The notes under the pieces are model-generated. The model made no database searches, had not been told where the DNA came from, and saw only the letters and a list, made by a program, of their open reading frames with translations. Shown piece by piece: positions 3,913 through 52,466 of a DNA stretch of 64,000 nucleotides. Both the position numbers and the translations under genes were made by a program. Every line of letters starts with the position of its first letter. Within the stretch, counting starts at the first letter, position 1. The DNA comes from Opitutaceae bacterium EW11 (GTDB lineage: Bacteria > Verrucomicrobiota > Verrucomicrobiia > Opitutales > Opitutaceae). The stretch lies in assembly GCA_003054665.1 (NCBI GenBank), contig QAYY01000010.1:248001-312000 (forward strand). The letters run 5' to 3'.

Positions 3913-5274
3913 TCAGACGAGCTCGAGGGTGCCGTCTCGTTTGGGCTGTTTCTTGGCGTCCGGGTACGCTTTGAACTCGTCGCCGAACTTCTGGATGAAG
4001 CTCTGGGTCGGCCACGAGCAGGCTTCGCCGAAGGCGCAGATGGTCCGGCCGGCGATCTGGTCGGCGACGCTCTTCAGCAGCGCTCCGTCCTCGGTGCGCG
4101 CGTCGCCGTGAACCATGCGGTTGGAGATCTTCTTCATCCACAGCGAGCCTTCGCGGCAGGGCGTGCACTGGCCGCAGCTTTCGTGGGCGTAGAACGCGTT
4201 GATGTTGGCCAGCGCGTCGACCATGTTGACGGAGTCGTCCATCACGATCACGCCGCCGGAACCGCCCATCGATCCGATCATCGCGAGCGAATCGAAATCC
4301 ATCGGGACATCCTCGAGGGCCCAGTCGTAATCGACCATCTCGGCGCCGGCCTTGCGCTTGCCTTTGAACCGTTCGCCGAACTTGAGCACCTTGGCGGAGG
4401 AGCCGCCGGGAATGACGGCCTTGAACTTGCGCCCCGGCAGGGGTCCGCCGCAGACCTCGTTCAGCAGCTGTCCAAGGGTGATCTTGCCGGTCTCGAATTC
4501 GTAGTAGCCGGGCCGCTTCACGTGGCCGGACACGCAGAAGATGCGCGTGCCGGTGTTGTTCGGCGTGCCGATCTGCGAAAACGCCTGACCGCCCACGTCG
4601 GCGATGTACTTCACGTGGCAGAGCGTCTCCACGTTGTTCACGATGGTCGGGCACATGTAGAGCCCGAGCACCGCGGGGAAATACGGGGGTTTGATGCGTG
4701 GATACGGGCGTTTGCCCTCAAGAGACTCGATCAGGCCCGTTTCTTCGCCGCAGATGTACGCGCCGGCTCCGCGGTGAACGTAGATTTCGCAGCTGTAGCC
4801 GGTGCCGAGGATGTTCGGACCGGCGAAATTGCGCGCACGCGCTTCCGCGATCGCTCGCTCGAGGATGCGGGCGCCCTCCGGAAACTCGCCGCGAATGTAG
4901 ATGTAAGCCTGCTTCACGTTGTTCGCGAAGCACGTGATCATGATGCCCTCGATCAACTGATGAGGGTCCTGGTGGATGATATAGCGGTCCTTGAACGTGC
5001 CCGGCTCGGACTCGTCGGCATTGACCACGAGGTAGATCGGCTTGCCGCTCTTGCGGTCGAGCAGCGACCACTTCACGCCACAGGGAAAACCGGCGCCGCC
5101 GCGCCCGCGCAGGCCGGACTTCTTCACCTCGTCGACGATCTCCTCCGGTTTGCGCTGTACCGACTTCTTCAATACTTCGTAGCCGCCGTTGCGCACGTAG
5201 CAATCGATGTCCGGGGTGTAGCCAGGCTCGTCGATGTGCTTGAAAATGATGCGGCGTTGTTCCGGTGCGGGCAT
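3913..5274 (-). CDS. nuoF: NADH-quinone oxidoreductase subunit F, FMN- and NADH-binding
   Basis: NuoF oxidises NADH through FMN and holds cluster N3. The 453-residue sequence contains the FMN/NADH-binding glycine-rich stretch GLRGRGGAGFPCGVKW near residue 55. The conserved YICGEETGLIESLEGKR region follows, and the C-terminal 4Fe-4S motif is ESCGQCTPCREG with a later Cys in EACSWP. Length is normal. It starts directly after the pyrimidine-rich arm of repeat element 2, and no Shine-Dalgarno sequence precedes the ATG (leader CTTTTCCTCCCA). It is followed by nuoG. Confidence 0.97.
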   Translation of the reverse strand: MPAPEQRRIIFKHIDEPGYTPDIDCYVRNGGYEVLKKSVQRKPEEIVDEVKKSGLRGRGGAGFPCGVKWSLLDRKSGKPIYLVVNADESEPGTFKDRYIIHQDPHQLIEGIMITCFANNVKQAYIYIRGEFPEGARILERAIAEARARNFAGPNILGTGYSCEIYVHRGAGAYICGEETGLIESLEGKRPYPRIKPPYFPAVLGLYMCPTIVNNVETLCHVKYIADVGGQAFSQIGTPNNTGTRIFCVSGHVKRPGYYEFETGKITLGQLLNEVCGGPLPGRKFKAVIPGGSSAKVLKFGERFKGKRKAGAEMVDYDWALEDVPMDFDSLAMIGSMGGSGGVIVMDDSVNMVDALANINAFYAHESCGQCTPCREGSLWMKKISNRMVHGDARTEDGALLKSVADQIAGRTICAFGEACSWPTQSFIQKFGDEFKAYPDAKKQPKRDGTLELV

Positions 5275-5281
5275 TGGGAGG

Positions 5282-5387
5282 AAAAGGCTGAAGGACTGAA
5301 GGGCTGAAAGGCTGAGGATGCCAGGGATTCGTGAGCGAAGGATTCTGGGCGTTCAGCCCTTCAGCCTTTCTGCCCTTCAGCCTTTCG
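5282..5387. repeat. Intergenic inverted octamer-repeat element 2 (nuoE/nuoF)
   Basis: In the minus-strand sense, the last nine codons of nuoE and the following bases (5351-5387) form a purine-rich array of AAGGCTGA/AGGGCTGA octamers. The complementary pyrimidine-rich array (5282-5316) ends a few bases before the nuoF start. The arms can pair over roughly 30 bases with about five mismatches. The loop contains GCCAGGGATTCGT (5320-5332), which recurs with one change in element 3. The period is 8 here, whereas it is 7 in the other elements. Confidence 0.75.
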
Positions 5388-5852
5388 TTTGATCTGTGCG
5401 GCGATCTCGCGGGCCTTGGCGCAATCGACCTTCTCGTGCAGCACGTCGTCCACCATCACCACGGGCGCGGTGCCGCAGCTGGCGAGGCATTCGACGAACT
5501 CGATCGTCACCTCGCCGTCGGGAGAAATCTGGTTCAGCCCCGTGTTGAACTCCTTTTTGAACTCCTCGCAGGTCCGGTACCCGCCCATCAGCGCGCACGA
5601 CAGCGTGCGGCAGACCTTGATATGGCGCCGCCCGATGGGCTTGCGCCGGAACATCGGGTAGAACGTCACCACCTCGTAAACGTTGATCGGCTGGAGCTCG
5701 AGTTTCTGCGCAACCCACTCCATCGCCGAGTCGGAGATGTAGCCGGCATCCTCCTGAATGAGGTGAAGCAGCGGCAGCACCGCACTCCGTTTGGTCGGGT
5801 AGTGCGTAATGACCTCTTCGATACGAGCGAATGTCTCAGGCTTGAGATCCAT
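5361..5852 (-). CDS. nuoE: NADH-quinone oxidoreductase subunit E
   Basis: NuoE is the 24-kDa-type thioredoxin-fold subunit that carries the 2Fe-2S cluster N1a beside NuoF. In the 163-residue protein the four cysteine ligands are recognisable as C-x4-C in CRTLSC and C-x3-C in ECLASCGTAPVV. The N-terminal helical part (HLIQEDAGYISD) is typical. The final residues KRKAEGQKG are encoded by the purine arm of repeat element 2, so the repeat has become part of the coding sequence. Flanking elements 2 and 3 separate it from nuoF and nuoD. Confidence 0.96.
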   Translation of the reverse strand: MDLKPETFARIEEVITHYPTKRSAVLPLLHLIQEDAGYISDSAMEWVAQKLELQPINVYEVVTFYPMFRRKPIGRRHIKVCRTLSCALMGGYRTCEEFKKEFNTGLNQISPDGEVTIEFVECLASCGTAPVVMVDDVLHEKVDCAKAREIAAQIKRKAEGQKG

Positions 5853-5860
5853 GGAGAAGA

Positions 5861-6015
5861 CGAATGCAGAATGAAGAATGGAGAATGAACAATGAGCGAG
5901 CCGCCGCGGGTTCGCGGCGGGCAGAAAGAAAACGCCAGGGACTCGTTCGTCCGGTTTTCATTCTACATTCAGCATTCTTCATTCTTCCTTAGCTGAGGCG
6001 CATCGGCGCCTCAGC
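5861..6015. repeat. Intergenic inverted heptamer-repeat element 3 (nuoD/nuoE)
   Basis: In the operon sense a 10-bp-stem hairpin (6006-6015 with 5992-6001, loop CGAT) overlaps the nuoD stop codon. It is followed by TAAGGAAGAATGAAGAATG and further GAATGNA units (5955-5991). An internal hairpin (5901-5908 with 5913-5920) lies in the spacer. The inverted array of CATTCTN units (5861-5895) then leads to the nuoE start. The spacer holds GCCAGGGACTCGT (5934-5946), nearly identical to the loop of element 2. Confidence 0.78.
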
Positions 6016-8442: not shown

Positions 8443-8894
<452 letters not shown>

Positions 8895-45444: not shown

Positions 45445-45599
45445 AAGGCAGAAGGATGAACGCAGAATGCAGAATGACCGACGCTTCCAGCGGATCGTCT
45501 GTATTCACTCCTTCGACACCCGGTGCTCACTTGATTCCATAGCGGAACTCCGGCCGAGGGATCGGAGTTCTGCCTTCTTCATCCACCCTTTTTCATTCG
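45445..45599. repeat. Intergenic inverted repeat element (gyrB/gyrA), degenerate
   Basis: About 15 bases after the gyrB stop lies a purine-rich array (AAGGCAGAAGGATGAACGCA then GAATGCAGAATGA, 45445-45477). A complementary pyrimidine-rich stretch, TTCTGCCTTCTTCATCC and onward (45568-45599), ends just before the gyrA GTG start. A local hairpin (45545-45552 with 45563-45570) lies inside the element. Units are more degenerate than in the nuo elements, but the placement and base bias are the same. Confidence 0.65.
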
Positions 45600-52318: not shown

Positions 52319-52466
52319 GCCTGGCGCCGAAGCGGCACCAGGCTAATGAAGAAGGAAGAAGGATGAATGAAGAATTCAGCACTCCGGCGGAACAATCCCC
52401 ACACGTGGCGCAACGCGTCTTTTATTCTGCATTCTTCATTCTTCCCTCATCCTTAGGCCTACGGCC
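52319..52466. repeat. Intergenic inverted heptamer-repeat element (corA/corA)
   Basis: Five bases after the first corA stop lies a hairpin with a 10-base stem and one mismatch (52319-52328 with 52334-52343). TAATGAAGAAGGAAGAAGG (from 52344) and a GATGAATGAAGAA stretch follow. After a spacer comes the inverted array ATTCTGCATTCTTCATTC... (about 52425-52455). A small hairpin, GGCC-TAC-GGCC (52456-52466), then precedes the second corA start by three bases. The layout matches the elements in the nuo operon. Confidence 0.75.

Follow-up and report, generated by a model that had tools for sequence, protein, structure and literature searches.

An inverted pair of octamer arms between nuoE and nuoF

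The window analysed here, the whole 64,000-nucleotide stretch of the genome of Opitutaceae bacterium EW11 (contig QAYY01000010.1, positions 248,001 to 312,000), includes two genes on the minus strand which we take to be nuoF (3913-5274) and nuoE (5361-5852); these names, like atp, lysC, thrC and rfb elsewhere in this work, were assigned by eye. At their junction lies an element (5280-5388) composed of two facing arms of tandem AARGRCTG units, with a left arm of 37 nt (5280-5316) that is purine-rich on the plus strand, a loop of 35 nt (5317-5351), and a right arm, also of 37 nt (5352-5388), that is purine-rich on the minus strand. The start codon of nuoF stands 5 nt past the left arm, and the C-terminus of nuoE lies within the right one, which is purine-rich on the nuoE coding (minus) strand, pyrimidine-rich on the plus strand, and encodes the last 8 codons of nuoE, its TGA stop and 1 base of the preceding codon. 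A first, sequence-only reading had rightly placed the end of nuoE in this arm but had counted nine codons there, the whole of the translated C-terminus KRKAEGQKG, which is one too many. Its stem of about 30 bp also stands, with 4 mismatches rather than about five: the inverted arms 5283-5315 and 5353-5385 are 33 nt long and 88% complementary, with 37 nt between them. Both arms have a period of 8 (Tandem Repeats Finder), the span 5283-5385 is the top-scoring inverted repeat of the window (score 21, the 3 others listed scoring 15-16), and RNA folding gives z-scores of -5.76 on the plus and -7.34 on the minus strand, with 0 of 200 shuffles equally stable. The inverted octamer arms between nuoE and nuoF are thus real.

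Further elements of similar layout occur in the window. One with a 7-base unit (GAATGNA) occupies the nuoD/nuoE gap (5855-5991), where a 57-nt loop separates the arms 5855-5894 and 5952-5991, and others of the 7-base family, recognised by an inverted repeat scan and by reading of the arms, lie at 268-412 (loop 72 nt) and 52344-52448 (loop 32 nt), together with a weaker one at 45451-45584 (short second arm, loop 82 nt) that is absent from the inverted repeat scan. All told, 5280-5388 has facing arms of a single 7- or 8-base unit, ~30-37 nt each; its unit being 8 bases long, it differs in unit length from the heptanucleotide repeats (STRR, GGGAATC, TAACTGA), a length that the neighbouring 7-base family does share. 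STRR is the name for tandem heptanucleotide repeats in gaps of Calothrix and Nostoc. Separately, a tandem repeat with an 11-base unit (GGTGTAGATCC), next to a tRNA gene at 8767-8797, is seen again near seven-base elements at the ends of contigs C7 and C15 (loci L218 and L227).

Element families across the genome

In the 6.4-Mb genome, the 7-base pattern has 103 matches, against 2 for a reversed control, and the 8-base pattern 173, against 3. Among the matches listed are at least 41 two-armed elements, namely at least 15 seven-base ones (a tandem duplicate at L214 included) and at least 26 eight-base ones (including 5280-5388 and one gene-holding copy), along with at least 24 unpaired arms. The purine-rich arm comes first in 41 of the 41 two-armed elements listed, and the arms, judged by eye, often adjoin start or stop codons. 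No periodic two-armed element came up when 400 kb of contig C11 was scanned without bias, so that the elements are either clustered or sparse. Several assembly ends (contigs C7, C13, C15 and C20) lie inside seven- or eight-base elements or adjoin them. At L214 (861-1227), a seven-base element and its flank form a near-exact tandem duplication with a 186-nt step, and the one-sided array at L199 (893-1009) consists of more than 10 near-perfect copies of TTCAGCCC, compared with the usual 4-5 units; part of the L199 flank is also present in the L209 loop.

The interiors of these elements are unrelated. It had been noticed earlier that the loops of 5280-5388 and of the adjacent 7-base element share a 13-base motif, and both copies are indeed there (GCCAGGGATTCGT at 5320-5332, GCCAGGGACTCGT at 5934-5946), with a 12/13 match that 0 of 300 shuffles reached when these two loops alone were compared. 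The further suggestion that this loop is conserved fails genome-wide: with one mismatch allowed, the motif occurs in only 2 of 41 element loops, with a third, weak occurrence (L204) at 2 mismatches, and the 3 of its 5 occurrences in the genome that lie outside this pair have no such arms within 150 nt on either side. It was accordingly rejected as a mark of the family. As the 41 loops make 820 pairs, and two other pairs from separate sites also share exact 12-mers, we read the common 13-mer as coincidence or local copying. The same comparison bears on the idea that the elements are MITEs, miniature derivatives of some ordinary insertion sequence of the DDE type whose ends are rich in repeats, an idea that their small size, dispersal, inverted ends and lack of a gene would suit; exact 12-mers common to no more than 3 of 820 loop pairs, one of them a tandem duplication, speak against it, as does the kind of gene that is found between the arms, S23/IVP, and we consider this origin very improbable.

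S23/IVP genes between the arms

One octamer copy (L212/L243, contig C4), located by eye in the atpA/atpG gap, has between its arms an open reading frame with a match to PF05635 (23S_rRNA_IVP), whereas 5280-5388 has no S23/IVP gene between its arms; nor was any IVP remnant found in the ORF-less loops, that of 5280-5388 included. All 3 IVP genes found in the genome have facing arms on their two sides, the units being AAGGCTGA, GGAAGTT and approximately GGTCAGA; none of the 3 matches the 7-base GAATGNA family. The domain is common among relatives: of 150 genomes from the family, 126 have it, with up to 19 matches each.

For a wider survey, each locus was scored by the best local inverted match between the 200 nt upstream and the 200 nt downstream of the domain, and called enclosed at a score of at least 12.5, the 99th percentile of shuffles. 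Arms enclose 98 of 112 IVP loci from Verrucomicrobiota, Cyanobacteria, Azospirillum and Gemmatirosa, the other 14 being below the cut: 3/3 in the EW11 genome, 26/30 among the best-scoring other loci of the family, 35/40 among further family loci chosen blind to their flanks, 20/25 among loci from genomes with nuoE/nuoF elements (4 duplicates dropped), and 14/14 on plasmids (12 from cyanobacteria, 1 from Azospirillum, 1 from Gemmatirosa), these last being taken from 35 matched records and including two near copies, L277 and L278. Random segments pass the same cut in about 1% of cases (13/992 in the EW11 genome, 7/1000 on a cyanobacterial plasmid) and other controls in about 3-9%: 2/29 NuoE genes, 1/29 plasmid coding sequences, and 65/1056 and 137/1560 mismatched upstream/downstream pairs, the last two figures being inflated because units are shared between loci. 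Among the 28 coding sequences below the cut in the cyanobacterial plasmid control is the IVP gene itself (NC_007412), because its arms overlap the coding sequence once the annotated ends, and not the domain match, set the limits.

The IVP gene is co-directional with both neighbours in 10 of 12 annotated plasmid cases, such as cas10-IVP-cmr3 and cas6-IVP-cas4. Three loci of cyanobacterial plasmids (L276, L281 and L282) have IVP elements between CRISPR-Cas genes (cas10/cmr3, cas6/cas4). An atpA-IVP-atpG arrangement with octamer arms occurs in two genera, with IVPs that are 64% identical, and in both genomes the nuoE/nuoF gap, too, contains an octamer element. Reverse transcriptase was considered as a partner of these elements and rejected: RVT_1 is absent from the EW11 genome and equally frequent in IVP-rich (3/10) and IVP-less (3/10) relatives.

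The repeat unit goes with the type of IVP

Arm similarity rises with IVP identity, both in the Opitutaceae set (r = 0.647; 0 of 2000 permutations) and across phyla (r = 0.470; 0 of 5000 permutations). The relation extends to pairs from different contexts, defined by the lack of a blastp match at 1e-6 between flanking frames, among which a common unit is found in 23 of 24 pairs with IVPs at least 80% identical, 31 of 62 at 70-80%, 8 of 84 at 60-70% and 4 of 3380 at 30-60%, these pairs being not independent (the top class is dominated by a single GAGTAGC cluster) and their flanks, some as short as 700 nt, able to hide homology. A clear case of a common unit in different contexts is that of the AGGAGTC elements of cyanobacteria and Opitutaceae. 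At one site (rfb genes, by eye), IVPs that look orthologous are accompanied by GGCTAGA arms in L249, L256 and L259 and by GGGTCAT arms in L251, L254 and L271. Arms thus enclose IVP genes across phyla, and unit and IVP type go together even where the flanks are not detectably related. This association of the arms with S23/IVP is well supported; because the unit tracks IVP identity in apparently unrelated sites, arms and IVP behave as one mobile element, a mobility for which support is fair.

The arms themselves are of rather uniform make-up. Those of 174 that passed the periodicity cut comprise 89 of period 7, 6 of period 8, and 1 each of periods 9 and 6; period-7 arms have a median length of 32 nt, with 47/89 between 30 and 34 nt, and some cyanobacterial arms are much longer than the rest. 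Units consist of a fixed core with one to three variable positions. An expectation of exactly five cores per arm was borne out in part, with 5 cores in 24 of 42 seven-base arms, but eight-base arms have 4 (29/64) more often than 5 (19/64). The purine-first order is not universal (82 values above 0.55, 9 between and 7 below 0.45). Two IVP loci, L347 and L356, have nearly perfect arms (35/35 in L347) that are pyrimidine-first.

The nuoE/nuoF gap in relatives

From 110 nuoE/nuoF loci of relatives, 70 were left (L129 among them mis-framed) after 17 identical sequences and 23 without a detected nuoF start had been dropped. Inverted periodic arms occur in the gap in 12 of these 70, with AAGGCTGA-like 8-mers (L006, L128, L130), GAGTAGC (L012, L056, L117), GAGTCAG (L028, L029) or units of ~10 bases such as ACACGAATGG (L016, L067, L081, L083); several further relatives have a one-sided periodic tract, and in 13/70 the gap is at most 8 nt and the element absent. 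Since no examined IVP locus of those genomes matches the ~10-base units, these may be two-armed elements of another kind. The NuoE tail KRKAEGQKG is found in none of the listed relatives; a partial counter-case to its co-occurrence with the inverted arm is L009, which has the tail KREKAERPNG and an octamer tract on one side, a second arm not being detected.

The sequence-only reading had also supposed a structure that is kept while its unit drifts. A two-arm layout with differing units is indeed what these 12 gaps display, but the loop is not conserved and, as described below, each arm in the EW11 genome fits its own partner no better than it fits arms of other elements. It is more accurate to say that the unit follows the kind of S23/IVP protein. 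Units in the nuoE/nuoF gap resemble the IVP arms of the same genome (similarity 0.563 versus 0.425; 48 of 5000 permutations; 11 genomes with at most 3 IVP loci each), and clearly match them in 5 of 11 genomes. In the EW11 genome, the unit of 5280-5388 is that of an IVP-bearing copy (similarity 0.82). On the strength of arms shared with IVP-bearing copies, we regard 5280-5388 as quite probably a gene-less version of a small two-armed element that includes an S23/IVP gene when complete.

Is the stem itself under selection?

A different explanation for the locus is a regulatory or processing hairpin of the nuo mRNA, such as an RNase III site or a stability determinant, under selection for pairing and with incidental repeats. 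The predicted fold, stable on both strands, and the position in an operon gap agree with this, and RNase III cuts the stems of intervening sequences (IVSs) in 23S rRNA (PMC4990558). Yet in the EW11 genome arms fit their own partners no better than others (mean rank 0.467, n=15, and 0.505, n=26), and the IVP arms, read on the IVP strand, have 45 G-U against 65 A-C mismatches and hence no wobble excess. The hairpin is, moreover, missing from most relatives' nuoE/nuoF gaps, Rfam matches in the whole window are limited to RNase P and one tRNA, with no match above the gathering score at 5280-5388, and a scan for intrinsic terminators gave nothing there (one chance-level match elsewhere, 5531-5551). 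We therefore judge a paired regulatory structure improbable. Templating of the arms from each other, or their selection to pair, is likewise rejected for the EW11 genome on the same mean ranks; at IVP loci the own-partner rank averages 0.58 (p 0.18, from 15 of 42 loci). An in-register comparison (28/30 higher in register) is biased, the register having been chosen as the best, and was left unused as evidence. Own-partner fit at chance and the lack of wobble excess suggest that the stem is mainly a by-product of two facing copies of one putative binding array.

Replication slippage combined with arm-to-arm correction at a quasi-palindrome could in principle build such arrays without any protein, and would suit the varying number of tandem units and the long arrays at some loci, L199 included. 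Correction, however, predicts a match between partners that is not seen in the EW11 genome, arm length is narrowly peaked, and the unit follows IVP identity across contexts and phyla; slippage accordingly seems to us slightly less probable still than selection for pairing.

A mobile element with a ring-shaped protein?

The preferred reading, that of an ORF-less copy of an S23/IVP element, has the following form. The full element has one S23/IVP four-helix-bundle gene (PF05635) between two arms of ~30-37 nt, each built from 7- or 8-base units in tandem, with the purine-rich strand running 5' to 3' towards the middle; it sits in operon gaps, where its arms often supply the stop or the last codons of a neighbouring gene. 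The arms may be the recognition ends of a mobile element, and gene-less copies may have spread, or be acted on, in trans. By analogy with the TRAP ring, which binds triplets arranged in tandem, we propose that an S23 homopentamer reads the cores, binding with one subunit per core on arms of 4-5 cores. Each of the two related solved structures, 2gsc and 2rld, comprises 5 chains, and the protein of 2gsc (XCC0516 of Xanthomonas campestris) is described as a toroidal homopentamer without known function (PMC4990558). More speculatively, and in our view with the odds against it, S23/IVP proteins might be the recognition rings of minimal mobile elements across phyla, a ring on the evenly spaced cores of single-stranded RNA or DNA arms guiding spread without a transposase or reverse transcriptase of the element's own; the intergenic heptamer repeats scattered through cyanobacteria, xanthomonads and other bacteria would then be ends and gene-less offspring, and the IVSs of 23S rRNA a special landing place.

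Relation to known systems

The closest counterparts are the 23S rRNA IVSs of Coxiella, Leptospira and Salmonella, which have complementary ends, a long stem and often an S23/IVP ORF (PMC4990558). The present elements differ in lying in protein-operon gaps, many per genome, with arms of tandem 7- or 8-base units, and 5280-5388 in particular stands between nuoE and nuoF rather than in a 23S rRNA helix and has no ORF. The intergenic 7-base repeats of Xanthomonas and Nostoc (GGGAATC, GGGGA(T/C)T), mostly of four units with two variable positions, are similar, and X. campestris has 70 convergent pairs of them; that source, which also cites 3 Calothrix heptanucleotides, does not mention S23 and found no general link with mobile elements (PMC4692102). 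TAACTGA repeats of Beggiatoaceae, cyanobacteria and Bacteroidetes are comparable as short 7-base sets by start codons with a patchy distribution across phyla, but are nearly all direct, with one inverted case, and the candidate binders proposed for them are S1, Csp and CsrA, with no mention of S23 (PMC4679880). Unlike STRRs as known, the heptamers on cyanobacterial plasmids here are paired ends around S23/IVP genes. The fold of bAvd, an accessory protein of diversity-generating retroelements, is related to the S23/IVP four-helix bundle (PMC10053308), although, unlike bAvd systems, the EW11 genome lacks a reverse transcriptase. Among the open-access papers searched, none was found to connect S23/IVP genes to arms of heptamers or octamers.

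Biological meaning

Intergenic heptamer repeats have been reported without known origin from cyanobacteria, xanthomonads and Beggiatoaceae, and S23/IVP proteins with a pentameric shape and no known function (PMC4990558; PMC4692102). If arms and protein belong together, S23/IVP gains a candidate ligand and the repeats gain an origin. Odd C-terminal tails, such as the KAEGQKG of NuoE, would then be the ends of elements that overlap genes, and the pattern as a whole suggests that such tiny mobile elements form a widespread family, present in several bacterial phyla.
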